The notes under the pieces were generated by a model. It ran no database searches. It saw nothing but the letters and a program-made list of their open reading frames with translations, and was not told the DNA's origin. A DNA stretch of 29,986 nucleotides from a virus, in the IMG/VR virus record IMGVR_UViG_3300037264_001775, positions 1 through 29,986 of that record; one strand, given 5' to 3'. Position 1 is the first letter of the stretch. Every line of letters starts with the position of its first letter. The position numbers and the translations under genes are program-made. Shown here in pieces: positions 1,760-27,124 of this stretch.

Positions 1760-3053
1760 TGTTCTCGCCGCGTTCCGCCCCAAAACACAAACCCGTTCCC
1801 TCTCATTAGAGGACTATTTCAGCCTTTTCAACGGCGACTACTCATACTCCCCATTCCAATCGTTGACTCCTGGGAAGGAGACGGTTGGGGCAGGGTTCGC
1901 CGGATACGCGTCGGACGCCTATGCCGGGTCAGGCATCGTGTTCGCTCTTGAACTGATCCGGATGCAAGTGTTTTCTGAGGCGCGGATCGTTTACCGGCGT
2001 ATCAACAAGGGCCGCCCGGGCGAACTGTATTCGACTTCCTCGTTGAATATTCTTCGGCGTCCTTCTCCTGGGCAGACGACCGGCTCGTTCCTGGCTCGGG
2101 CTGTCCTCGACGTGGATCTTGCTGGTAACAACTTTTCGGTTCGCACGCCGGGGAAGGTTAAGAGGCTCCGTCCCGACTGGGTGACAATCGTGTTGGGCGG
2201 GGAGCAGGATTCTCCTGAGCAGGAGGTGGTCGGCTACCTGTACCACCCCGGAGGTGACAAGGCGAAAGAACCTGTCTCCTACACGGCGGATGAGGTTGCT
2301 CATTGGGCTCCGATCCCTGACCCTCTCGCCCAGTATCGGGGCATGTCGTGGCTGACTCCGGTGGCTCGTGAGGTTCAGGCGGATAAGCAGGCGACGGCGC
2401 ATAAGCAGAAGTTCTTGGAGAACGGTGCTACGCCGAACATGATCATCAAACATCAGATCAACGACCCCGAAACTTTGAAGAAGTGGGTCGAACTGTTCAA
2501 ACAGTCCCATGAGGGTGTCGCCAACGCCTACAAGACTTTGCATTTGGGCGGCGGAGCGGATGCGACAGTGGTTGGTAAAGACCTCCAACAGCTCGACTTC
2601 AAAGCGGTTCAAGGCGCCGGAGAGACCAGGATCGCTGCTGCTTCGGGGGTGGGCGCGGTGATGGCCCAGTTTTCGGAGGGTATGCAGGGCTCCTCGCTGA
2701 ACGCCGGCAACTATGCGGCCGCCAGGAGAAGGGTCGCAGACGCTGTTTTCCGTCCGTTGTGGCGTTCATTCTGTAACAGTTATGAGCCGATCCTTCCCGT
2801 ACCACGCAATTCGGAGTTGTGGTATGACGACCGGGATATCGCGTTTCTCAGGGAGGATGAGAAGGACGCCGCGGAAATCCAGTTTCTCCGCGCGCAAACT
2901 CACCGGCAACTGTTGGACGCGGGGTACGAGTCTGACTCGGTGGTGAAGGCTATCGAGAACGACGACTTCTCACAGTTGGTCCATTCAGGACTGTTTTCAG
3001 TCCAGCTCCAACCGCCCGGCACGCAAACGCCGGCTCCCGACCCCGCCGTCTAA
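1752..3053 (+). CDS. Portal protein, HK97 type
   Basis: Forms the dodecameric ring at the capsid vertex through which DNA enters and to which the tail connectors bind. The 433 residues fit HK97-type portals. A GTG start at 1752 is preceded by GAGGAG at 1741-1746. Features typical of the family include the N-terminal segment with LNILRRPSPGQTTGSF (about 100-115), DLAGNNF, and the C-terminal helical region with QFLRAQTHRQLLDAGYESDS. The last 20 residues are Pro/Gln-rich and probably disordered. It sits between terminase and protease, the canonical place. Assignment rests on overall pattern and order rather than on a catalytic motif. Confidence 0.88.
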   Translation: MVDVLAAFRPKTQTRSLSLEDYFSLFNGDYSYSPFQSLTPGKETVGAGFAGYASDAYAGSGIVFALELIRMQVFSEARIVYRRINKGRPGELYSTSSLNILRRPSPGQTTGSFLARAVLDVDLAGNNFSVRTPGKVKRLRPDWVTIVLGGEQDSPEQEVVGYLYHPGGDKAKEPVSYTADEVAHWAPIPDPLAQYRGMSWLTPVAREVQADKQATAHKQKFLENGATPNMIIKHQINDPETLKKWVELFKQSHEGVANAYKTLHLGGGADATVVGKDLQQLDFKAVQGAGETRIAAASGVGAVMAQFSEGMQGSSLNAGNYAAARRRVADAVFRPLWRSFCNSYEPILPVPRNSELWYDDRDIAFLREDEKDAAEIQFLRAQTHRQLLDAGYESDSVVKAIENDDFSQLVHSGLFSVQLQPPGTQTPAPDPAV

Positions 3054-3080
3054 CCGGCTCCCCCCACCTCGAGGACTCCC

Positions 3081-3806
3081 ATGACTGAGATTCTTTCCCG
3101 CGCTTTCGACTTCACCGTGGAACGCGCAGAAGCCTCCGACGACGGCCTCACCCTTGAAGGGTACGCCGCCGTTTTCAACACGCCCGCACAGATCGACTCC
3201 GCACGCGAAGGCCGTTTCACCGAAACAATCGCTCCCGGCGCGTTCGCGAAAACGATTCAGGAGCGGATGCCTGTCCTCCAATTCGACCATGGCACCCATC
3301 CGATGATCGGTTCGATCCCTCTCGGAGTTGTCCAGCATTTGCGTGAGGATGACAACGGACTGTTTGTCCGTGCCCGCCTGTCGGATAACTGGCTGGTCGA
3401 ACCTGTACGCGACGCCATTTCTGATGGTGCCGTTTCGGGCATGTCTTTCCGGTTTGCTGTGCCGGAGGGTAAGGATTCGTGGAACCGTGGCCGCACACAG
3501 CGGACTATCCACGAGGCGAAACTGTACGAGCTGGGTCCGGTCGTTTTCCCTGCTTATGAGGCGACGACTGTTGGGGTCCGTTCGGATCTTCTAACACTTT
3601 TGGGTGACGACCGGGTCCGGTCGGAGCTCGCAACCATTCTCGCCTTCGGCGAGATCCCCGCCGATTCAGAAGCCGATTCGTTCACTTCTGATGAGGCGAT
3701 CAACGAGCCGGCGCTGCCACTCGTATCAAAGCTGCCCGCCTACCGCATGCTCGCGGTCAGACGTTTCGAGCAGCTCAACCTCATATTGAAAGAGAGAAAC
3801 GCATGA
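3081..3806 (+). CDS. Prohead maturation protease, HK97/U35 type
   Basis: A serine protease that degrades the scaffold part of the capsid protein during head maturation. Residues 22-57 carry the family start (DGLTLEGYAAVFNTPA, then FTETIAPGAFAKT). The likely catalytic His is H70 in LQFDHGTHP. The catalytic Ser is in GAVSGMSFRF (S119 or S122). The acidic/Leu-rich C-terminal third is a plausible scaffold-like tail. The start ATG has GAGGA at 3071-3075. It overlaps the capsid gene by ATGA, so the two are likely coupled and made in a fixed ratio. Confidence 0.9.
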   Translation: MTEILSRAFDFTVERAEASDDGLTLEGYAAVFNTPAQIDSAREGRFTETIAPGAFAKTIQERMPVLQFDHGTHPMIGSIPLGVVQHLREDDNGLFVRARLSDNWLVEPVRDAISDGAVSGMSFRFAVPEGKDSWNRGRTQRTIHEAKLYELGPVVFPAYEATTVGVRSDLLTLLGDDRVRSELATILAFGEIPADSEADSFTSDEAINEPALPLVSKLPAYRMLAVRRFEQLNLILKERNA

Positions 3807-5356: not shown

Positions 5357-5584
5357 ATGAACTCCGTATACGCGCTCGCCTCCTGTTCGATTACGAATGA
5401 TGGGGGTGAAACGTTCCGTTTGTATCGGGGGGAACCGTGGGATGCGGACGATCCGCTGGTCAAATCCCGGCCACAGTTTTTCTCTAAGAAGCCTGTGGTT
5501 GTTCGCACGTCGATGAATCCTGGGTTTGCCGAATATGTGGAGCAGGCGACTGCCGCTCCTGGTGAGAAACGCGCTTTGAAGTGA
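5357..5584 (+). CDS. Small conserved-looking virion-region protein of unknown function
   Basis: Encodes 75 residues from an ATG with a near-perfect GAGGAGG at 5344-5350; a longer reading frame starting at 5291 would run through the hairpin and is unlikely. The sequence has a compact basic-hydrophobic pattern (FRLYRGEPWDADDPLVKSRP, then a Val-rich strand KKPVVVRTS). Small proteins of this kind lie right after the capsid gene in several actinophages and are usually left unnamed. It shares a GTGA overlap with the next gene. I do not recognise a function; a head accessory role is possible from position only. Confidence 0.75.
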   Translation: MNSVYALASCSITNDGGETFRLYRGEPWDADDPLVKSRPQFFSKKPVVVRTSMNPGFAEYVEQATAAPGEKRALK

Positions 5585-6945
5585 AGAAACCTGGCGGGGT
5601 GTTTCTCGGCTATCTACATCCGAACGACCTGTCGGCGTCGTTTCACCGGTCGTTCATGGATCTTGTCTTATACGACAAGATGAACCCGGAGCTGAACCGG
5701 CTCGTCTCGTGGGGCGGGGTCCGTGCTGCGGCTACTGGGCTGCCGGAGGCGCGGAACACGATTGCGAAAGCGATGCTCGAGTCGGATGCTGAATGGCTCC
5801 TGTTTGTGGATGCGGACATGGGGTTTGATGCTTGGGTTCTCGAACAGCTTCTGCTTGTTGCGGATGAGAACGATCTGAAACTTGTTGGTGGACTCGCCTT
5901 CGCTTACCGGGAGATCATGATGGACGGGATGAACGGCTTCCGCTGCCGTCCTCTCCCCACCATCTACGACTATGGGAAAGATCCTGTCTCCGGGGTTGAA
6001 GATTTTCGGGGTCGTGCCCACTATCCGGTCAACCAGCTCGTAAGAGTGGCTGCGACCGGCTGTGCTCTCGTCCTGATTCACCGGGATGTGTTGCAGGCGG
6101 TTCAGGATGAGTATGGGGAGACTTGGTTTCACCGGCTGGCCGGACCGACAGGTTTGCGTGGGGAAGACATCTCCTTCTTTGTGAAGACTGGTGCGCTCGG
6201 GTTCGAAGCGTATGTGCATACGGGGATTCGGACGACCCACCATAAGGACAAGTGGGTTTCCGAAACCGACTTTTGGGAGGAGATGATCGCCCCTCCTGCT
6301 ACGGAACGGGTGGATGTGATTGTCCCCACGGTTAAAGCCCGCCTCCACAACATTCAACCTCTAGCTGAGAGTCTGATTGCCACTACCGGGCTGGCCCGTC
6401 TCCTGTTCGTAGTTGACGACCAGGAGCATGCTGAACAGGTCATGGAGTTTGGGGAGACGACGGTCCGGTCGGGGTCGTTCGCCAGGAAAATCAACCACGC
6501 CTACCCGCTCACCCGGGCACCGTGGGTTCAAGTTGTGGGGGATGACTGCCGGTTCCAACCCGGATGGTTAGACCACCAGCAGCTCACCGCCAAACTGTAC
6601 AAAGCCAAAGTGGTCGGGTCGAACGATCTGGCGAACCCTCGGGTTCTCCGCGGGGAACACGCCACCCATTGGATGGTTTCGCGGGAGTACATAGACGAGG
6701 TTGGCGCATCGTGGGACGGGCCCGGAGTGTTCGCCCATGAAGGCTATAGGCATTGGTTCGTAGACGACGAAATCGTGTTAGCTGCGAAACAGCGTGGAGT
6801 GTTCCAGTCCGCTCTCGGAGCCAGGATTGAACATCTTCATCCGATAACCGGTCGGGTCGAAACCGACAAGGTTTACGAGCGGAACGACAAGTACGCGCAG
6901 CAGGATCACGACCTGTTCCAAAAACGGGTAAAGGCGAACTCGTGA
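5581..6945 (+). CDS. Two-domain GT-A glycosyltransferase
   Basis: A 454-residue protein with two tandem GT-A-like domains. Domain one has the metal/nucleotide-sugar DxD motif in LLFVDADMGFD (D77 and D79) preceded by LPEARNTIAKAML, and ends with a His-rich segment TTHHKDKW near 218-225 that fits a C-terminal metal ligand. Domain two begins around 244 with VDVIVPTVKAR and carries VVGDDCRF (318-325). Together these suggest transfer of one or two sugars from nucleotide donors. It starts at a GTG overlapping the previous stop and ends in a GTGA overlap with the next gene. Domain one looks like phage virion-associated glycosyltransferases; the acceptor is not visible from sequence. Confidence 0.8.
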   Translation: MKKPGGVFLGYLHPNDLSASFHRSFMDLVLYDKMNPELNRLVSWGGVRAAATGLPEARNTIAKAMLESDAEWLLFVDADMGFDAWVLEQLLLVADENDLKLVGGLAFAYREIMMDGMNGFRCRPLPTIYDYGKDPVSGVEDFRGRAHYPVNQLVRVAATGCALVLIHRDVLQAVQDEYGETWFHRLAGPTGLRGEDISFFVKTGALGFEAYVHTGIRTTHHKDKWVSETDFWEEMIAPPATERVDVIVPTVKARLHNIQPLAESLIATTGLARLLFVVDDQEHAEQVMEFGETTVRSGSFARKINHAYPLTRAPWVQVVGDDCRFQPGWLDHQQLTAKLYKAKVVGSNDLANPRVLRGEHATHWMVSREYIDEVGASWDGPGVFAHEGYRHWFVDDEIVLAAKQRGVFQSALGARIEHLHPITGRVETDKVYERNDKYAQQDHDLFQKRVKANS

Positions 6946-7487
6946 GCCTCACCGTCATCGTCTGCACGATTCCTGAAAGACGTTCACTCCTCTCCCGGTG
7001 TCTTTGGTATTTGGAGCATCAGACCGTGACAGACTTCGAAGTCATCGTCGCTCACGGTCCGCAAGGGAAAGGGACCAAGCTCGCTCGGGCTTTCCCCCTG
7101 GTGGAAACGTCGCATGTCATGGTTGTTGACGACGACGACTGGATCTCCCCACTCCTAGTCGAATCTGTTCTCCCGTTCAGAGAGGATTGGGTCGGATACG
7201 ACGCTGTCCAATTCACAGACGGACGGTTCGACCGGAAGCTCACACTGAATCCTGGTTCCCACATTTGTCCAACACGCATCGGTCTGGCGCTCGAAGCCCC
7301 GTTCGGTGACGAATATTCCGCTGCCTACGACTACACCGATTTTGTTGCTTCTAAAGCCGAATCGACCTCGTACATTGTCGAACCGTTCTACTTCTACGAC
7401 AAGTGGAATGCTCCCGGTGGTGAATGGTCCCCTCCTCGGAATGTTGGGATGTGGCCGCACGATAAGAGCCTGTGGCGGTGGGCGTGA
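6942..7487 (+). CDS. Short GT-A family glycosyltransferase, copy 1
   Basis: A 181-residue GT2-like minimal domain: N-terminal strand SLTVIVCTIPERRSLLSRCL, then VVDDDDWISP with an acidic cluster at 63-66 acting as the DxD. The C terminus contains FYFYDKW and RNVGMWPHDKS. The gene at 8095 shares the start (TIPERRSLLSR), the DDDDW motif and the same tail (YFYDY, SVGMWPYDKS), so the two are paralogues, although they differ in the middle, which suggests different acceptors or donors. It is shorter than free-standing GT2 enzymes (usually 250-350). GTGA overlaps join it to both neighbours. Confidence 0.8.
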   Translation: MSLTVIVCTIPERRSLLSRCLWYLEHQTVTDFEVIVAHGPQGKGTKLARAFPLVETSHVMVVDDDDWISPLLVESVLPFREDWVGYDAVQFTDGRFDRKLTLNPGSHICPTRIGLALEAPFGDEYSAAYDYTDFVASKAESTSYIVEPFYFYDKWNAPGGEWSPPRNVGMWPHDKSLWRWA

Positions 7488-8098
7488 GCGCGTGGACGTC
7501 CGAACTGAAACTGGCCGCCTACCAGGCGTGGTTCAACTCGGGGGTTGAGGCCCGCACCCGGTGGAAGGGTGTCCAAATCCTCAAGTTTCCTAGCGACCTG
7601 TTCGTCGCGCAGGAGATCATTTGGGAAACGAAACCCGACGTGATCATCGAAACGGGAACGTTCCACGGCGGGTCAGCCTGCTTCTACGGCGACTTGGGAG
7701 TCGAAGTCCATTCTGTTGACCTGGCTCCGCCGAAGCCGCCGCCTCCACATCCGAACGTCACCTACCACCGTGGCTATTCGACGTCGCCGTCGAACGTCTA
7801 CTTCATCGGTGAAGCCGTTCGGGATAAGCGGGTCATGGTCATCTTGGATTCGGACCATCATAAGGCGAACGTTCTAGCTGAACTTGAGGCTTACGGGCCG
7901 ATGGTCAGCTCGGGCTGCTACCTCATCTGTGAGGACACGAACCTGGGCCGGTCGATCTGGTTGGAAGAGTTCGGCGGTGACGGACCCGGCGACGCCCTGG
8001 ACGAATGGTTACCCGACCATCCCGAGTTTCAAGTCGATCTGAGCCGTGAGAAGCATGGGGTGACAATGCACCCCGGCGGGTTCCTCCTCCGCCAATGA
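7484..8098 (+). CDS. CmcI/rhamnosyl O-methyltransferase-like enzyme
   Basis: A 204-residue protein resembling the CmcI family (cephalosporin hydroxylase / rhamnosyl O-methyltransferase), a Rossmann-fold SAM-dependent group. The SAM loop is ETGTFHGGS (56-64), the second strand EVHSVDL (74-80), and the family metal-binding-like stretch is VILDSDHHKANVLAELEAYG (119-138), followed by CYLICEDTN (145-153). In sugar loci these enzymes methylate sugar hydroxyls. The start is taken as the GTG at 7484, giving the same GTGA overlap as its neighbours; GTG at 7472 or 7478 are alternatives. It lies between two paralogous glycosyltransferases, which supports methylation of a glycan. Confidence 0.8.
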   Translation: MSAWTSELKLAAYQAWFNSGVEARTRWKGVQILKFPSDLFVAQEIIWETKPDVIIETGTFHGGSACFYGDLGVEVHSVDLAPPKPPPPHPNVTYHRGYSTSPSNVYFIGEAVRDKRVMVILDSDHHKANVLAELEAYGPMVSSGCYLICEDTNLGRSIWLEEFGGDGPGDALDEWLPDHPEFQVDLSREKHGVTMHPGGFLLRQ

Positions 8099-8661
8099 TG
8101 CTCTCCATATGTATCGCCACGATCCCTGAACGGCGGTCGCTCCTATCGCGGATGCTCCACTCCCTCGCCCAGCCCGGGATAAACGAAACCTTTGAGATTC
8201 TGTGTCATCAGGGGACACGACCGCACGGCGAGAAAATCAACCGGATGGTCAGTCTGGCGGAAGGCTCCCACGTCACCTTCCTCGATGATGACGACTGGGT
8301 CGCCTCCGACTACGTCGCCTCCCTGACCCCACATGGGGAAGATTTCGTCGGCTATGACACGGTGTGTCTGGTTGAGGGAAGATACGACCAGACGGTCACC
8401 CACGACGCCCAATACGAAGGGTGGAACGGGACCAGACGGGGTGTGTCGCAGAAGTGTCCGATTCTCCGCGAGCTCGCCTTAGAAATCCCGTATCCGGACG
8501 ACTACTACCAGGACGGCAAATGGTCCGCCTCCGTCCAGCTCGGGGTTAGAACTCACGCTTACGTCCCGAAGAACCTGTATTTCTACGACTACCGGAACCA
8601 GGACCGTCACCGGTCTGTCGGAATGTGGCCTTACGACAAGTCGGAGATCCGATGGCTGTAA
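8095..8661 (+). CDS. Short GT-A family glycosyltransferase, copy 2
   Basis: A 188-residue paralogue of the 6942 gene: MLSICIATIPERRSLLSRML at the start, FLDDDDWVAS with acidic residues 64-67, and a matching tail with LYFYDYRN and SVGMWPYDKSEIRWL. The region between differs and contains a Tyr/Asp-rich patch (IPYPDDYYQDGKW). A minimal GT-A domain of this size would transfer one sugar. It starts by ATGA overlap with the methyltransferase-like gene and ends inside the epimerase gene. The gene order GT, methyltransferase, GT suggests duplication with the methyltransferase captured between the copies. Confidence 0.78.
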   Translation: MMLSICIATIPERRSLLSRMLHSLAQPGINETFEILCHQGTRPHGEKINRMVSLAEGSHVTFLDDDDWVASDYVASLTPHGEDFVGYDTVCLVEGRYDQTVTHDAQYEGWNGTRRGVSQKCPILRELALEIPYPDDYYQDGKWSASVQLGVRTHAYVPKNLYFYDYRNQDRHRSVGMWPYDKSEIRWL

Positions 8662-9704
8662 GCCTTGTCACTGGTGGAGCAGGATTCATCGGTTCTCATC
8701 TTGCCCGAGGGTTGATGTCACGCGGTCATGATGTCGTCGTTGTGGACAATCTGACCGGCGGCTGGCGGGACAACGTTCCCGAAGGCGCATCGTTCGCCCA
8801 TGCCGACCTGGCCACAGCGAACCTCGACGTCCTGTTCAAAGTTTGGAAACCCACCCATGTCTGGCATTTGGCCGCGTACGCCGCGGAAGGATTGTCGCAT
8901 TGGGTGCGCGAGTTCAACTACACGAACAATGTGATCGGTTCGGTAAGACTGCTAAACGCCTCCATTAAATCAGGGTTAGAACGGTTCACGTTCACCTCGA
9001 GCATGGCCGTCTACGGCGCGCAGAAGCCTCCGTTCACCGAACTGATGCGGCCCACCCCGGAAGACCCCTACGGAATCGCCAAGTACACGGTCGAACAGGA
9101 TTTGGCCGCGTCAGGTCAACTTTTTGACCTGCCCTACGTCATCTTCCGCCCACACAACGTGTACGGGCCCGGCCAGAACATCGGCGACCCCTATCGGAAC
9201 GTGGTCGGGATCTTCATGCGGAAAGGGTTAGGCGGCGAACCACTCACCGTGTATGGGGATGGAACACAGACTCGAGCGTTCTCCTATATCACTGACATTG
9301 TCGACCCGATGCTCCGTTCACTGGACGTGGACATAACGGGACAGACCGTGAACATCGGTGGCGAACAGGTCATTACGATCGGTGAGCTCGCCGATCAGGT
9401 TGCCCTCCGCTTCGGCGTTGAAGTGAAACATTCTGATCCGCGGGTCGAAGTGAAACACGCCTTCTGCAACCATGCGAAAGCCAGGGATCTCCTCGGCTTC
9501 AACCCTCAAGTTTCGCTTGAGGTTGGGTTGGATCGGATGGAGGATTGGGTTCGTGCCGCCGGGGTCCGCTGGTCGAAAACGCCTGCTCTGGAATTGACTG
9601 AGGGTTTGCCTTCGTTTTGGAGGTCTGGTGAAACGGCTGCTCATGTGGACTGCCAATGCAGCCGAATGGGTCCGGTGGGAGTGGCTCCAGTTTGCTGTGT
9701 ATGA
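8652..9704 (+). CDS. NAD-dependent sugar-nucleotide epimerase/dehydratase (GalE-like SDR)
   Basis: A 350-residue extended short-chain dehydrogenase. The NAD-binding Rossmann loop is TGGAGFIGSH (7-16), the cofactor strand VVVDNLTGG (29-37), and the active site has the Ser in FTSSMAVYG (S116/S117) with YGIAK giving the Tyr-Lys pair (Y140, K144). It probably interconverts an NDP-hexose to supply the glycosyltransferases. ATG at 8652 is preferred: it begins directly with the Rossmann strand, whereas an upstream GTG only adds ten unlikely residues. The last about 25 residues (Cys-rich, overlapping the next gene) are not family-like and may be a result of gene crowding. Confidence 0.87.
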   Translation: MAVSLVTGGAGFIGSHLARGLMSRGHDVVVVDNLTGGWRDNVPEGASFAHADLATANLDVLFKVWKPTHVWHLAAYAAEGLSHWVREFNYTNNVIGSVRLLNASIKSGLERFTFTSSMAVYGAQKPPFTELMRPTPEDPYGIAKYTVEQDLAASGQLFDLPYVIFRPHNVYGPGQNIGDPYRNVVGIFMRKGLGGEPLTVYGDGTQTRAFSYITDIVDPMLRSLDVDITGQTVNIGGEQVITIGELADQVALRFGVEVKHSDPRVEVKHAFCNHAKARDLLGFNPQVSLEVGLDRMEDWVRAAGVRWSKTPALELTEGLPSFWRSGETAAHVDCQCSRMGPVGVAPVCCV

Positions 9705-10052: not shown

Positions 10053-10258
10053 GCGACAAGATCGCCGCCGCTAAAGCGGCCCTCGCCCTACTCGAAGCCG
10101 AAGAAGCATTCAAGGCGAAGAAGGCTGCCGGCGAGTTGACCACAGAAGACAAGCTGGCACTCCGCGCCCTACGCGAAGAGTTCCGGTCCAACACCCGCAC
10201 CCCTGTCAAAGATGGTGCGGCTCCCGCTCCGATAGGCGCGAAAGCTGAGGTGTCCTAA
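10049..10258 (+). CDS. Small Ala/Lys/Glu-rich helical protein
   Basis: Encodes 69 residues. The first 50 form a charged heptad-like helix (AAKAALALLEAEEAFKAKKA, then LTTEDKLALRALREEFRSN), so a coiled coil is likely; the tail is Pro/Ala-rich and flexible. Starts by ATGA overlap and ends in TAATG overlap with the next gene. Function unknown; a small scaffold or assembly factor is a possibility, not shown. Confidence 0.65.
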   Translation: MSDKIAAAKAALALLEAEEAFKAKKAAGELTTEDKLALRALREEFRSNTRTPVKDGAAPAPIGAKAEVS

Positions 10259-10710
10259 TGGCTATCACCGCGTCGGGCCTCTACTTCCTCACCTTCGAAA
10301 AAATGTTGATCGACACGCTCGGCGAATCGTTGGAGGCTGAGGATCACACCCTGTCGCTAGTGGAGGATGCGCACACTCCGGCGTTCGACACCCACGACTT
10401 CCACGCTGACCTGACCAACGAGATTACGGGTGGCAACTACGCCGCCGACGCGGTCACGTCTACAGAAGTCACAGTTTCCACGGGCACCCTCGTCTATGAC
10501 GCAGCTGACAACGTGTACGACAACGGCGGGTCGAACAACGTGACCATCACGAATGCGATGGCCGCTGTCCTCGTCACCACTGTCGGATCTTCGGCGACGA
10601 ACCAGCTTGTCGGACTGTGGGATTTCGTGACGGCAGCCTCCTGTTCCAACTCGACGTTTACGGTGCAATGGAACGCGGCAGGCTTGTTCACAATTGACTT
10701 GACCCCATAA
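10258..10710 (+). CDS. Putative virion structural protein
   Basis: A 150-residue beta-rich protein. The opening (ITASGLYFLTFEKMLIDTLG) and the close (FTVQWNAAGLFTIDLTP) match a pattern I associate with small phage proteins found next to fibre genes, though I cannot name a curated family. The middle is rich in Thr/Ser/Asn/Val strands with a run of Asn-Gly. It is joined by TAATG overlaps to neighbours on both sides, which ties it to the surface-protein genes that follow. A head decoration or fibre-base role is an inference. Confidence 0.6.
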   Translation: MAITASGLYFLTFEKMLIDTLGESLEAEDHTLSLVEDAHTPAFDTHDFHADLTNEITGGNYAADAVTSTEVTVSTGTLVYDAADNVYDNGGSNNVTITNAMAAVLVTTVGSSATNQLVGLWDFVTAASCSNSTFTVQWNAAGLFTIDLTP

Positions 10711-12293
10711 TGCGGGGTCGGCACCGGGCACCGTCTAACCACCTGCTCTTCAAAGCGTCCCTGGTTGGGGCGGTCCTGCTCATACCTGGACTGCTCCTGG
10801 CCGCTCCGGCGGTGTATGACCAGGTGTGGGGGGAGCGGGTGGATGCTCGGCTGTGCGCTCTTGAATCTGTTGAAGGGATTGTGAGTCCTGAATGTACGAC
10901 CACTACTGCGCCGTCCACGACCACAAGCTCGTCCACTACGACGACGGCTCCGCCGACAACATCTTCGTCGTCCACAACCACGACTGCCCCCACAACAACT
11001 ACAACTCAGCCCTCGACTACTTCAAGTACAGCTCCTACGACGACCTCTCAGCCGCCGACGACATCGACAAGTCTTCCACCTCCAACGACATCAACGTCGG
11101 TAACAGGTAGCCAAACCCTCACCGGCAACGTCTGCGGAATGGTTCACGGCGACGCAACTCTGGTCGGGAATGTGAATCTGACCTGCAACCTTGAGGTCAT
11201 GGGTCCGGCCGCGATCCTCCGAGCTCGTGCGGGTGTGACGGTGACGGGTAACGGGTTCGAAATCATGTTCATGGACGGGGCTCGAGCCGACATTCAAGGC
11301 ACCGTCACGAGCACATGGTCGAATGATGGGCTGACTCAGAACCGGGTCAGGTCGATCAACTTCAACGGCATCTCGAGGATGATGTTCCACCAGGGCGCAG
11401 GAGTTTCAACTCTCCGCTACTTCAAGATCACCGGCGCAGGACGGATGGGTGTGGTCGGCTTCTACCCGCTCCACTTCCATCTCAACGGCAACACCACAAG
11501 AGGAACTCTCGTGGAAGGAGTGGTGATTGAGAACAGTCAGAACCGGGCTTTTGTCCCTCATGGTTCTCATGGGATCACGTTCCGTGACACCATCGCCTTC
11601 AACATTCGCGGCCCCGCCTACTGGTGGGACCCCGGCTTCGCACCGAACGCTTCCAATGACATTCTGTTCGACCATGCGTTAGCCGACACCATCATCGGTG
11701 AGTCGCCTTCCGACCGGGGCTACCGGCTGTCTGCGTTCACTTTGAGGGACGGCACGAACCTGACGGTACGCAACTCGGTGGCACGGAACGTCAACCCCTT
11801 ATCTGATAAGGACTGTTCGGGGTTCCAATGGCCTGAGGATGCTGAGTCGGCGTGGACGTTCACCAACAACGCCAGCTTCTCAACGAACTGTGGGAACGGG
11901 ATTTTCGTATGGCAGAACGAAGGCCCCGTCCACCTTGTGACCGGGTTCCGCACTAATGGGGCGATCAACCACGGCGCCTACAACAACAAGTACGACTACC
12001 GGAATGTGACGGCCACCGCTTTCGAAGCTCACGCCATCGGCTGGAAGATGTCCGACTCGTCGGTGGGTGCTGTCACCTTCTTCGAACATGCCGTACCTAA
12101 TCCTGCCGGGGTGGTGTGGGTGAACGTGAACGTGACCTCGCTGCACATGTTCGACTCGCCCGACCGAGAGGGCAACGACCATCCGACCCTGCTGACCGTC
12201 ACCGGAGGGAATCTGACATGTTCGATGATCGACTGGTCCGGTGCGCATCCGTCGTCGCGGGTGGTCATCAACGGTGTGGCCTGCGTTAGATAA
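10710..12293 (+). CDS. Membrane-anchored, Thr/Ser-stalked, G8/CEMIP-like beta-helix protein
   Basis: A 527-residue protein in three parts. Residues 1-10 are basic, followed by a hydrophobic segment (about 16-36) acting as signal anchor or signal peptide. Residues 63-131 are an almost pure Thr/Ser/Pro stalk, mucin-like. Residues 135-527 form a right-handed beta-helix-like domain. It contains YPLHFHLNGN (252-261), then an Asn-Arg-Ala/His-Gly segment (SQNRAFVPHGSHGITFRDT) and GPAYWWDPG, a motif order resembling the G8/beta-helix core of the animal proteins CEMIP and TMEM2 (hyaluronan-linked) and bacterial relatives. Cys residues at 49, 62, 142 and 159 may pair. A signal anchor is odd for a virion fibre, so it may instead be displayed on the host cell. 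Starts by TAATG overlap. Confidence 0.7.
   Translation: MRGRHRAPSNHLLFKASLVGAVLLIPGLLLAAPAVYDQVWGERVDARLCALESVEGIVSPECTTTTAPSTTTSSSTTTTAPPTTSSSSTTTTAPTTTTTQPSTTSSTAPTTTSQPPTTSTSLPPPTTSTSVTGSQTLTGNVCGMVHGDATLVGNVNLTCNLEVMGPAAILRARAGVTVTGNGFEIMFMDGARADIQGTVTSTWSNDGLTQNRVRSINFNGISRMMFHQGAGVSTLRYFKITGAGRMGVVGFYPLHFHLNGNTTRGTLVEGVVIENSQNRAFVPHGSHGITFRDTIAFNIRGPAYWWDPGFAPNASNDILFDHALADTIIGESPSDRGYRLSAFTLRDGTNLTVRNSVARNVNPLSDKDCSGFQWPEDAESAWTFTNNASFSTNCGNGIFVWQNEGPVHLVTGFRTNGAINHGAYNNKYDYRNVTATAFEAHAIGWKMSDSSVGAVTFFEHAVPNPAGVVWVNVNVTSLHMFDSPDREGNDHPTLLTVTGGNLTCSMIDWSGAHPSSRVVINGVACVR
10896..11102 (+). repeat. Low-complexity Thr/Ser-coding stalk repeat
   Basis: Degenerate ACN/TCN codon runs with interspersed CCN encode residues 63-131 of the beta-helix protein, with units such as TTTTAPPTTSSSS recurring. 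The codons vary (ACG, ACC, ACT, ACA), so the peptide composition, not the DNA, appears to be conserved; it is a protein-level stalk and possible O-glycosylation target. Confidence 0.85.
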
Positions 12294-14165
12294 ATGGCGC
12301 ATCTCCTGTTCGACCGGGTAAAAGAAACCACCACCACCACCGGCACCGGCGATATCACGTTGGCCGGCGCCGTGTCCGGGTTCCGTGCGTTCTCCTCTGT
12401 CCTCGCCGCAGGGGATACGACCCTCTACTGCATCGAACTGAACGCCGAATGGGAGGTGGGGGTCGGCACCTACAACACGACCCTGGCCCGCACCACGGTC
12501 CTCGCCTCGAGCAATGCTGGGGCTCTAGTCTCGTTTTCGGCGGGTACGAAAAACGTGTTCATCACGTTCACCACGGCAGGGCCGGTCGGCTCCATGTCCG
12601 CAGGTGTCACCCCCTCCGTCATTTCGGTGGGTGCCGAGTTCACAGGAACCGGGGTTCCTACCGCCACTCTTCCCGGAACGCACGCCCTAAACGACATTCT
12701 GGTGTTGGCCCTCCAATCATCGAACGAGGATCTGGCTACTCCTACCGGCTACACCCGGTTGAGTCCGGAGAACGGGATCGGCGCTTCGGTTACGGCAGGA
12801 TCAACCCGGCTCGGCATTTTCTGGAAACGGGACGGCGGCTCCGAATCAGCACCCACCCTCGCCGACTCCGGCGACCACACCTACGGTTTCATGTTCGCGG
12901 TCCGTGGCTGTCCCACGTCGGGCGACCCGTTCCATTTCATAGCGAACAACTGGAAGTTCACCGCTTCGACCACGGGAACCGCTAAAGGCGGCGAAACCTA
13001 TGTTGATAACTGTCTCATCGCCAACATTTTTGCTACCGCCATCGACAATGCTGGCGCTCAAGCCTCCTCACCGACCAACTCTGATCTGACTTCGATCACC
13101 GAAAACTTTGATGACGGGACCACTGACGGGACCGGAGGTGGCCTCGCCCTGATTTCGGGGGTGCGGGCGGCGGCGGGAACTTTCGGGGATACCACTGTCA
13201 CTTGGGGTACTTCAACTGTTGACCTGTCCACCACGATCGCTTTCCTCCCGGCAACGACAATCGAACGGGCTTTCCGTGGTCCTTGCAGCCAAACGTTTAT
13301 CGGGTCGCTGCCGAACCTGACCGACGTGTACGTCAAACCCACCGGGGTCCGCAAGATCTTCGTCCAACTCTGCGACGGGGGCGGGTCGGGTTCTGGTGGG
13401 AACACGACCACTACCGCGGCGGGTGGAGGCGGCGGCGGAGGAGGCGGATACGACGAGGCGTGGTTCGACGCCCGCGACGTGGCGTCTCCTGCGACTCTCC
13501 GTGCTGGTGCTGGTGGGGCGGCGGGAACAGCTTTGAATCAGGCGGGCAACGCCGGCACCATTTCCACTTTCGACTCTGGTACTCGTTCCCCGTTCACTGT
13601 CCGTGTTACTGGGACTGCGGCTACTGCGGCCGCGTCCGCGGACGGCGGCAACGGCGGCTGCGGATCAGGCAACACCCTTGTCTCTCCTGCGGTGGCGACC
13701 ACTCGACTCTCACCGGAGGTCACTACTGACGGTGTCGCCTACGGCGGTGTCGGAGGCCGTGGCGGATCGGGTTCTACCGGTCCGACCGGCGGCGGGGTCG
13801 GCGAGTGGGGCGGCGGCGGTGGAGAGTCCGGCGCTGACACCGACGCGGCGACCACCTCAGACAACAACGGCTGGTCGAGGCGTGGAGGCGGCGGCGGGGC
13901 GGGAGGCCGGACCAACACGAACATTTCCGGTTCCGGACACGGCGGCGGCGCGGCAGGCGTCAACTCGGCGCAAGGCGCAGCAGGCACAGATTCGACCCGG
14001 CTCCCCTACGGAGGGTCGGGAGGCTGCGGCGGCGGCTCATCCGTCGTCCTCGGCGGACTTGGCGGATTCCCCGGCGGTGGAGGCGGAGGCGGCGCAGGCG
14101 TGGCGGGAGGGTTCGGCGGGGCAGGCGGACACGGCTGCATCGTTGTCACCTCCTGGTTCACATGA
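12294..14165 (+). CDS. Fibre/adhesin with glycine-rich C-terminal domain
   Basis: A 623-residue protein in three regions. Residues 1-95 are a compact beta domain seen at the start of many phage fibres (FDRVKETTTTTGTGDITLAG, then WEVGVGTYNTTLARTTVL). Residues about 105-325 are a jelly-roll-like domain (LNDILVLAL, PTGYTRLSP, SGDHTYGFMFAVRG) that has a distant counterpart in the N terminus of the 14461 protein. Residues about 362-615 are over one-third glycine with GGGG, GGAGG and GGSGG runs, consistent with polyglycine-II sheets as in known phage tip adhesins; the last residues HGCIVVTSW form a closing strand. It probably binds the host surface. It abuts the preceding stop codon. Confidence 0.72.
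   Translation: MAHLLFDRVKETTTTTGTGDITLAGAVSGFRAFSSVLAAGDTTLYCIELNAEWEVGVGTYNTTLARTTVLASSNAGALVSFSAGTKNVFITFTTAGPVGSMSAGVTPSVISVGAEFTGTGVPTATLPGTHALNDILVLALQSSNEDLATPTGYTRLSPENGIGASVTAGSTRLGIFWKRDGGSESAPTLADSGDHTYGFMFAVRGCPTSGDPFHFIANNWKFTASTTGTAKGGETYVDNCLIANIFATAIDNAGAQASSPTNSDLTSITENFDDGTTDGTGGGLALISGVRAAAGTFGDTTVTWGTSTVDLSTTIAFLPATTIERAFRGPCSQTFIGSLPNLTDVYVKPTGVRKIFVQLCDGGGSGSGGNTTTTAAGGGGGGGGGYDEAWFDARDVASPATLRAGAGGAAGTALNQAGNAGTISTFDSGTRSPFTVRVTGTAATAAASADGGNGGCGSGNTLVSPAVATTRLSPEVTTDGVAYGGVGGRGGSGSTGPTGGGVGEWGGGGGESGADTDAATTSDNNGWSRRGGGGGAGGRTNTNISGSGHGGGAAGVNSAQGAAGTDSTRLPYGGSGGCGGGSSVVLGGLGGFPGGGGGGGAGVAGGFGGAGGHGCIVVTSWFT
13377..14138 (+). repeat. Glycine-rich coding repeat region
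   Basis: GGN/GCN-rich DNA encoding the glycine lattice of the adhesin. Irregular GGCGGCGGN runs recur (for example near 13425, 13805, 13890, 14030 and 14075). This low-complexity DNA also opens long shadow frames on other strands, which I do not count as genes. Confidence 0.75.
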
Positions 14166-17392: not shown

Positions 17393-18112
17393 ATGGCGTT
17401 TCAGCATGGCAAGAGCACAGGCGTGCTTTTCGACGAGTTCAACTTCTCATCGTATTTCAACGCTGTCTCAGCCTCCCGACAGATCCAAGTGGTGAACACG
17501 ACCACGTTCGGCAACGACAACAAGACCTACATCCCAGGCATCGAGGAGGGCTCCCTCTCCATCCAGGGTTTGTGGGACGGCGCTGCCGCCGCTGTGGACG
17601 CCGAGTTCGATGCTGCTATCGGCTCTGAGGGGGTCTTCACAATCTGCCCGGAAGGGTTCGCCACGGTGGGGAACCGGGCGATAATGATGAAAGCCGAAAA
17701 TGTCCAGTACGACATCCGCTCCACCGTTTCAGACGCCGTACGAATCGTCCTGGGTGGGACTGCGGACGGTGGGGTCCGTATGGCTGGCCGGCTGCTGCAG
17801 GATCTTGCTGCGGAGACGACCACGTTCAACGGCACCAACGTAGACAACACGACGTCTACCGCGTTCGGCGGGGTCGCCCACCTCCATGTCACCGCCTTTT
17901 CTGGTACGTCGGGGGTTATGAAGGTTCAGCATTCGCCGGACAACTCGGCGTGGGCCGACCTTGTCACGTTCACCACGGTGACTGGTGTAGGTGTCCAGCG
18001 GAGTGTTGTGGCCGGGACGACGACTGTTGACCGCCACCTCCGTTTTGCTATTACGGCTGACACGTTCACTTCAATGACCGTGGCCTGCGCGTTCGCCCGC
18101 AACCGCTCCTAA
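17393..18112 (+). CDS. Major tail tube protein, with C-terminal extra domain
   Basis: A 239-residue protein with its own ribosome site (GAGGAGT near 17380). Residues 1-140 are a tail tube-like domain (MAFQHGKSTGVLFDEFNFSS, GNDNKTYIPGIEEGSLSIQG). Residues 150-239 form an added beta domain (FGGVAHLHVTAFSGTSG, VQHSPDNSAW, HLRFAITADTFTSMTVACAF) like those displayed outside tail tubes. The gene at 18171 is a clear relative of its first half. It is probably the main tube subunit because it has the better start signal and the display domain. Confidence 0.7.
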   Translation: MAFQHGKSTGVLFDEFNFSSYFNAVSASRQIQVVNTTTFGNDNKTYIPGIEEGSLSIQGLWDGAAAAVDAEFDAAIGSEGVFTICPEGFATVGNRAIMMKAENVQYDIRSTVSDAVRIVLGGTADGGVRMAGRLLQDLAAETTTFNGTNVDNTTSTAFGGVAHLHVTAFSGTSGVMKVQHSPDNSAWADLVTFTTVTGVGVQRSVVAGTTTVDRHLRFAITADTFTSMTVACAFARNRS

Positions 18113-18170: not shown

Positions 18171-18563
18171 ATGGCGTTCGTCCACGGGTCCGACTCCGGC
18201 ATTGTCGTAGACGGAACCACTATTAGCGCATACGTCGACTCTGTTAGCCACAACCGGAGTGTTGATACGGCTGAAACGTCGGCGTTCACAAACAACGACA
18301 AGACCTTCATCGCCGGACTCGAGGACGGGTCATTCGACCTGTCCGGCCACTGGGATACTGCTGCGGACACGGCGTTGGACGGCTGCTTCGACAGTGCCTC
18401 CGTCTCCCTCATCTACGGTCCTGCCGGTGTGACTTCCGGTCTGGTCAAGTACACGGCCACCTGTTTCGTCACCTCCTATCAGATCGTTTCCAATGTCGGT
18501 GATCGGACTAACTGGACGGGCTCGTTCCAACGTTCGGGTGATCTGACTAAGGGCACCTTCTAG
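18171..18563 (+). CDS. Second tail-tube-like protein
   Basis: A 130-residue paralogue of the first domain of the 17393 product: both start MAF.HG, and share the order SGIVVD/TGVLFD, VS..R, NN(D)KTFI.GLE(D/E)GS and G.WDTAAD/G.WDGAAA. It lacks the C-terminal display domain. The ribosome site GAAAGGA lies just before the ATG. It could form a minor ring of the tube, be a tail initiator, or be a copy that lets the virion carry mixed decorated and bare subunits. The next gene starts at the base after its stop. Confidence 0.65.
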   Translation: MAFVHGSDSGIVVDGTTISAYVDSVSHNRSVDTAETSAFTNNDKTFIAGLEDGSFDLSGHWDTAADTALDGCFDSASVSLIYGPAGVTSGLVKYTATCFVTSYQIVSNVGDRTNWTGSFQRSGDLTKGTF

Positions 18564-26314: not shown

Positions 26315-27124
26315 TCAATCAAGATAGTCCAATGAGGCTACCGCTTCGCACAGGCGTTCCCCCGTGGTCCGAGTGTAAATGGCTGTGGTTTCTGGCCGGG
26401 AGTGTCCGGCGAACTCCTGGGTGGTACGCAAATCTCGAGTGTGGTCGTTCATCGTCGCCAAACAAGTGTGCCTGAGCTGGTGGGGTCTGGTAACTCGCAC
26501 TCCCGCCGCAACGGAAACGGTTTCTACCCATGTCCATACGGTTGCCGGGTGACAGTAGGCCCGCCCTTTCGCCCCGGGGAACACGTAGACGTACGCGGAG
26601 ACGTGAGCCCGCAGTTGGTCGGCGAGTGACGGGTGGACGGGCAGGGTCCGCGACCGTGACCCTTTCCCCATGATGGTCACCCACTCTAAATCACGGTCGA
26701 AGCTATCCCACCGCAGTTTGGCTATCTCCTCCCGGCGTAACGCCAGGTACAACCCGAGAAGCACCGCGCCGCCTTCCGGCCACCACCCCCTCGCGGTTTT
26801 CGCGAGGAGGCGGGCTTCGTCGGATTCCAGTCCGCGGTAATGGCCCAACGGTTTCGGCGGAACTCGAATCGCCCGGGCCGGGCCGACCACATCATGGAGC
26901 TGCCAGTAGTGGACGAGGGCGGTGCGGAGTTGGCGGCGGGTGGATGTGGTATACGGGAAACTGTTGGCGAGTTCGGCGGCTTGGGACGGGGTCAACTGTT
27001 GAAGGTCCCAACCCTGCCCGGTAGCAAGAGTTTCCGCCCGGTCCAGTTTCCCCCGGTAGATGGAAACCGTTTTGTCTGTCAACCCTTGCGCGAGCAGCCA
27101 CTCAGTGTAGGTATCTGCCACCAT
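26315..27124 (-). CDS. int: Tyrosine recombinase (phage integrase)
   Basis: Integrates and excises the phage genome by strand exchange at att sites. 269 residues. The N-terminal SAM-like core-binding domain covers about 1-85 (YTEWLLAQGLTDKTVSIYRG). Catalytic residues: R130 in LALRREEI, K154 in GKGSRSRT, H215 and R218 in HQLRHT, H241 in GHSRPET, and the nucleophile Y250 in AIYTRT. There is no clear arm-type DNA-binding domain, so it is of the compact, Xer-like size. It lies 17 bases downstream of the repressor gene and is probably cotranscribed with it. Confidence 0.93.
   Translation of the reverse strand: MVADTYTEWLLAQGLTDKTVSIYRGKLDRAETLATGQGWDLQQLTPSQAAELANSFPYTTSTRRQLRTALVHYWQLHDVVGPARAIRVPPKPLGHYRGLESDEARLLAKTARGWWPEGGAVLLGLYLALRREEIAKLRWDSFDRDLEWVTIMGKGSRSRTLPVHPSLADQLRAHVSAYVYVFPGAKGRAYCHPATVWTWVETVSVAAGVRVTRPHQLRHTCLATMNDHTRDLRTTQEFAGHSRPETTAIYTRTTGERLCEAVASLDYLD

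Follow-up and report, generated by a model that had tools for sequence, protein, structure and literature searches.

The sequence analysed (the window) comprised all 29,986 bases of an IMG/VR virus record. It encoded a terminase, a portal protein, a protease, an HK97-type capsid protein, major tail proteins, a tape measure protein and an integrase, and was thus assigned to a tailed, temperate phage. Two major tail protein genes, at 17393-18112 and 18171-18563, were tandem paralogues, as they are in the sister phage L111. The portal protein shared 47-57% identity with proteins in four Acidimicrobiia genomes and had more distant matches in two others, a resemblance that points to Acidimicrobiia, a group of little-studied actinobacteria, as the host class. 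No tRNA was found in the window, so a tRNA attachment site could not be proposed.

Among the virion genes, one encoded a 527-aa protein with a predicted export signal, a Thr/Ser/Pro stalk and a beta-helix (Table 1). The original prediction, made from the DNA letters, had described the same three parts, and its coordinates for the gene proved exact. The start codon overlapped the stop codon of the upstream gene (TAATG), and its own stop was directly abutted by the ATG of the next gene. A foreign base composition was rejected, because the GC content of the gene (0.590) was close to that of the window (0.601), leaving no compositional trace of a recent transfer.

Table 1 Features of the beta-helix gene, its product and the surrounding phage genome. 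Positions are those of the window.
Feature	Position	Strand	Details
Accessory glycan cassette	5581..9704	+	Missing in L111; lies within the head-tail gene region
Upstream virion-module gene	10258..10710	+	phrog_644; homologue in L111; 1-nt overlap with the start of the beta-helix gene
CDS of the predicted exported CEMIP-superfamily beta-helix protein	10710..12293	+	ATG start, 527 aa; homologues at the same position in two other phages
N-terminal export signal, residues 1-34 (predicted)	10710..10811	+	Basic n-region, hydrophobic core 16-32, AxA 32-34
Short coiled-coil-like segment, residues 36-61	10815..10892	+	Resembles, by eye, 'HEARIAALEGKVVELESRIDALEG' of the L023 homologue
Thr/Ser/Pro stalk, residues 63-130	10896..11099	+	T/S/P = 61/68
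Right-handed parallel beta-helix, residues 131-527 (397-residue domain, predicted)	11100..12290	+	AlphaFold2 pLDDT 91.6, pTM 0.90
Pfam PF24606 CEMIP_beta-hel match, residues 223-306	11376..11627	+	Profile positions 5-90 of 212
Residues common with G8/CEMIP-type proteins	11388..11630	+	H227, Y252, H255, H257, H284 and acidic D307; alignments including TMEM2
Downstream Gly-rich, fibre-like gene	12294..14165	+	phrog_863, E=7.6e-07; missing in sister phage L111
Tyrosine integrase	26315..27124	-	Temperate lifestyle

When the first 60 residues of 26 window ORFs were compared, this protein had the most hydrophobic 17-residue segment (mean KD 2.34, at residue 16; runner-up 1.79). The N-terminus had been taken for a signal anchor. 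Its hydrophobicity was borne out, but given its AxA motif (A32-P-A34), a Sec signal peptide seems somewhat more likely than a permanent anchor. For the coil-like segment that follows, a role in oligomerisation is possible. The stalk consisted of 34 Thr, 16 Ser, 11 Pro and a few other residues, and was 68 residues long instead of the 69 first counted; a DNA microsatellite artefact was ruled out by its mixed codons. A comparable stalk was found in the relatives from phage L023 and from the Acidimicrobiia genomes G001 and G042, and was missing in phage L082. The beta-helix was modelled with AlphaFold2 from a 21-sequence alignment.

The only Pfam domain match of the protein was to PF24606 (48.3 bits, E=1.4e-12), which exceeded the gathering cut-off of 27.3 bits and covered only ~85 of the 212 profile positions. 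All 21 family members matched the same profile at E<=0.01. By phmmer, the protein matched TMEM2 (8c6i, E=2e-6), and when the 21-member family profile was searched against all PDB sequences, the TMEM2 ectodomain (8c6i, 8.7e-19) was the sole match at E<=0.01. These results upheld the proposed kinship of the core with CEMIP and TMEM2, the latter being the sole relative with a solved structure. The structural comparison gave a mixed outcome. A beta-helix carrying the HFH motif was predicted, as anticipated, but the best fold matches in the PDB were the P22 tailspike and a PL6 alginate lyase, with GH28 enzymes also found and TMEM2 only at rank 24 (TM 0.40). Since the fold matches were generic, the link to CEMIP rests on sequence rather than on fold.

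Homologues were found in 24 of 395 Acidimicrobiia genomes, a few of them being long proteins of the G8/CEMIP type. The closest chromosomal relatives shared 48-51% identity over the helix core, and the match in G001 spanned residues 62 to 525 of the window protein. Most subfamily members with a complete N-terminus began with a Sec-, Tat- or lipoprotein-like signal of the export type. T/S/P linkers were present in several, and some carried CWB2 or SLH-like wall-anchoring repeats. In a tree of 34 rows (26 from the short clade and 8 from the long clade), the short subfamily was split from the long G8/CEMIP-type proteins with 100/100 support, and the three phage proteins were nested with the chromosomal proteins of G001 and G042 (97/92 support). 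The tree places the window protein in a distinct, previously unnamed subfamily of predicted exported Acidimicrobiia proteins. Because the phage members are nested and the chromosomal distribution is much wider, the transfer would have run from host to phage, and the gene was apparently captured by the phage. A recent acquisition from an animal was rejected, the nearest relatives found being bacterial, at ~50% identity. One genome, G034, had two convergent beta-helix paralogues (L068:26-1921, plus strand, and 1918-3672, minus strand), one of them with SLH-like repeats.

The description of the protein as specifically animal-like, of the G8/CEMIP kind, was therefore abandoned, given its Acidimicrobiia relatives, the fully supported split and the lack of a Pfam match to the G8 domain in the window protein and in L023, L082, L066 and L081. 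G8 was found in two divergent Acidimicrobiia members, L076 (3.6e-06) and L071 (9.6e-05, slightly below the cut-off).

Both motifs named in the original prediction were present, YPLHFHLNGN at residues 252-261 and NRAFVPHGSHG at 278-288, and were followed by AYWWDPG at 303-309. This last, Trp-rich part had been considered a CEMIP feature as well, but TMEM2 and the long CEMIP-type proteins have FFLED or a similar stretch instead. Thus, the superfamily as a whole shares the HFH motif, along with the first His of PHGSHG, and the Trp-rich part marks the short subfamily. Unvarying positions in the 26 short-clade rows were Y252, H255, H257, V282, H284, W305, D307, W374, W382, W401, Q402, H408, H421, G422, Y424 and N426, and all subfamily invariants (YxxHxH, VxH, WWD, WQN and HGAYxN) were found in the window protein. 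Y252, H255, H257 and H284 were also unvarying in the 8 long-clade rows, which had H at position 227 and E at position 307. The set H227, H255, H257, H284 and D/E307, common to both clades and largely to TMEM2, is a candidate catalytic or metal site.

Both nearest chromosomal relatives (G042/L066 and G001/L081) lay inside surface-polysaccharide loci with glycosyltransferases, a polysaccharide deacetylase and a DegT aminotransferase. The G042 locus additionally had a sulfotransferase, and the G001 locus a UDP-glucose/GDP-mannose dehydrogenase, a dTDP-sugar isomerase and an ABC-2 exporter. With such neighbours, the possibility that these two homologues are prophage genes was rejected. Across eight loci, the 78 neighbour ORFs, picked by a simple greedy selection that makes the counts approximate, included six group 1 glycosyltransferases, four deacetylases and three dTDP-sugar isomerases. 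Each of these families had fewer than two members among 73 control ORFs from arbitrary positions in four of the homologue-holding genomes. This context, together with the export signal and a predicted fold resembling depolymerases and PL6/GH28 enzymes, makes it likely that the protein acts on a host-type surface polysaccharide. It also supports the suggestion, made at the outset, of an actinobacterial polysaccharide as a possible target; hyaluronan as a substrate of the phage protein is unsupported.

The two further phage homologues, both from IMG/VR, were a 491-aa protein in L023, with signal, coil, stalk and helix, and a 425-aa protein in L082, with a signal and without a stalk. Their N-termini (RRHWW...VSGVAYA/AP in L023 and ...PAQA/SP in L082) looked like export signals, with AYA and AQA sites. 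In all three phages, the gene was located after a 130-150-aa gene and before tail-fibre-like genes, and in L082 the gene at the upstream position was a PHROG virion structural protein. The secreted or anchored architecture and the phage origin put forward in the original prediction were supported.

The sister phage L111 was colinear with the window from the terminase to the tape measure (identities of 60% for TerL, 57% for the portal, 61% for p10258 and 59% for p16002). It had no beta-helix gene, no p12294 and none of the glycan cassette, which in the window comprised glycosyltransferases at 5581, 6942 and 8095, an RMNT_CmcI O-methyltransferase at 7472 and an NDP-sugar epimerase at 8625. In L111, the p10258 homologue ended at 7140 and the next gene started at 7144. 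Because this colinear phage does without the beta-helix gene and keeps nearly all neighbouring virion genes, the gene is removable accessory cargo. In an Acidimicrobiia prophage (L096:12982-14935, minus strand), glycosyltransferase and methyltransferase genes came right after the capsid gene, without a CEMIP-like gene, which suggests that the cargo slot after the capsid gene is recurrent.

The virion is the usual place of a phage depolymerase, and the original prediction had allowed for a virion enzyme. The beta-helix would then be a tailspike-like part of the particle, degrading the capsule on entry. Such a role would fit its position in the three phages, among virion genes and beside fibre-like ones, and would also fit the phage tailspikes among its best fold matches and the signal-less G8/CEMIP-type proteins encoded near the portal gene in other phages (L011). 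However, tailed-phage particles assemble in the cytoplasm, and all three phage homologues of the clade have an export-type N-terminus, so the product would be expected to leave the cell and not to enter the virion. Neither Pfam nor PHROGs recognised a head-binding domain in the window protein, and L111 manages without the gene. We consider a virion-borne enzyme very unlikely. Export via the host secretion system is, in turn, highly probable.

Once outside, the protein could serve in lysogenic conversion, displayed or secreted and, together with the glycan cassette, altering the surface glycan of the lysogen, for example for superinfection exclusion or a change in attachment. The phage has an integrase, the cassette is accessory as well, and the Acidimicrobiia prophage L096 likewise has glycosyltransferase and methyltransferase genes behind its capsid gene. 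In addition, stalk and export signal fit surface display, and the host relatives resemble cell-surface proteins, some with wall-binding repeats. On the other hand, the gene overlaps its upstream and abuts its downstream neighbour, leaving zero intergenic room for a promoter of its own, and this suggests late rather than lysogenic expression. Between a late depolymerase for release and a change of the lysogen surface, the former is more likely, and we regard lysogenic conversion as possible but rather unlikely.

The reading that we prefer, with a probability of about 0.5, is that of a captured protein, exported and probably expressed late, by which host surface polysaccharide is cut or remodelled. 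The gene would have been taken from the surface-polysaccharide loci of the host and carried by a temperate Acidimicrobiia phage. Judging from the gene overlap, it would be translated together with the late virion genes. Its product would leave through host secretion and work outside the infected cell, not as a component of the particle. There, as a soluble or stalk-tethered depolymerase, it would cut, or at least bind and remodel, the host's own surface polysaccharide or exopolysaccharide, with H227/H255/H257/H284/D307 as the candidate active site, and progeny phages would thereby be released and dispersed.

A lectin or an epimerase is an alternative to a depolymerase. As a non-lytic glycan partner, it would act as a lectin, a C5-epimerase or an assembly or ruler protein in polysaccharide export, consistent with the location of the chromosomal relatives in biosynthesis and export loci. 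TMEM2 activity is itself disputed (PMC10206443, PMC12254123): one careful study saw no hyaluronidase activity of the ectodomain and assigned no active site (PMC10206443), but intrinsic activity was reported by another (PMC10474455, as cited in PMC12254123). WceF of Pantoea stewartii, a glycosidase from an exopolysaccharide locus with a tailspike-like fold, is slow and lectin-like (PMC7949094). Against a purely non-lytic role, several His and an acidic residue are strictly conserved across the clades, a pattern expected of a catalytic or metal site more than of a lectin, and intrinsic TMEM2 activity has been reported. We rate this role as very unlikely. In the most far-reaching reading, the conserved His4-Asp/Glu set would be the catalytic site of a new CEMIP-like subfamily of polysaccharide enzymes, one of which temperate phages of Acidimicrobiia captured from their hosts and now export; this reading is doubtful.

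The fold and the superfamily were already known. The novelty lies in the subfamily, in the exported form that phages carry and in its apparent capture. A first viral scan for close relatives found none, and most loci from a first HFH pattern scan were rejected as chance frames. By tblastn, no homologue was detected in 50,697 records of isolated phages (E<=1) or in 72,556 plasmid records (E<=1e-5). NCBIfam had no model for the beta-helix family, and a PHROGs match of the window protein was rejected as due to the low-complexity stalk only. In a literature search for CEMIP and bacteriophage, no title or abstract described such a phage protein. Hyaluronan cutting by CEMIP/TMEM2 and the location of the active site are openly disputed. 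The phage and bacterial branch, compact and single-domain, keeps H227, H255, H257, H284 and the acid at 307, and offers a tractable protein for testing the site. Catalysis by this site in bacterial and phage members, if confirmed, would make it a candidate for the active site of human CEMIP/TMEM2 too. A depolymerase exported by the phage, derived from host exopolysaccharide loci and encoded between virion genes, would give phages a further means of handling the host coat, and would establish depolymerase export, as opposed to display on the virion, as a strategy of this Acidimicrobiia phage lineage.

Compared with known systems, the phage protein is most similar to the Acidimicrobiia chromosomal proteins (L081/G001 and L066/G042), which share the predicted export signal, the T/S/P-rich linker, the beta-helix and the same invariants. 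Unlike the phage gene, theirs lie in surface-polysaccharide loci, and elsewhere in the subfamily there are also Tat or lipoprotein signals and CWB2 or SLH-like repeats. With human TMEM2/CEMIP, it has in common the beta-helix core with Y-x-x-H-F-H, followed by a V-x-H-like motif and the acid at 307. It differs in having no detected G8 and no lectin-like insert, in WWD replacing FFLED, and in the extra invariants W374, W382, WQN, H408 and HGAYxN.

A CEMIP beta-helix is likewise phage-encoded in the ~1000-aa G8/CEMIP-type proteins of L011 (L011:1504-4542, minus strand), L014, L019 and L021, which had no evident signal peptide. In contrast to the window protein, the L011 protein had a strong G8 (1.9e-17) and a full CEMIP match (4.5e-47), and was encoded near the portal gene. 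Its helix region had no match in isolated phages. Proteins of this type are probably virion proteins. Another short CEMIP-like branch was seen in viral contigs (L085:4832-7060, and L083, L084 and L086), with no evident signal where complete and, by eye, a PA14-like C-terminus; the L085 gene overlapped an M15-peptidase-like gene.

The tailspike depolymerases of P22, Sf6 and K64-1 (S2-4) are phage-encoded right-handed beta-helices as well, but they are virion-attached trimers without an export signal, and the fold likeness is weak (TM 0.3-0.5, 10-12% identity). The best functional analogy is WceF, which, like the host versions of the protein, is a beta-helix from an exopolysaccharide locus. Its activity has been experimentally demonstrated (PMC7949094), and the likeness is one of function, with no sequence relationship claimed.
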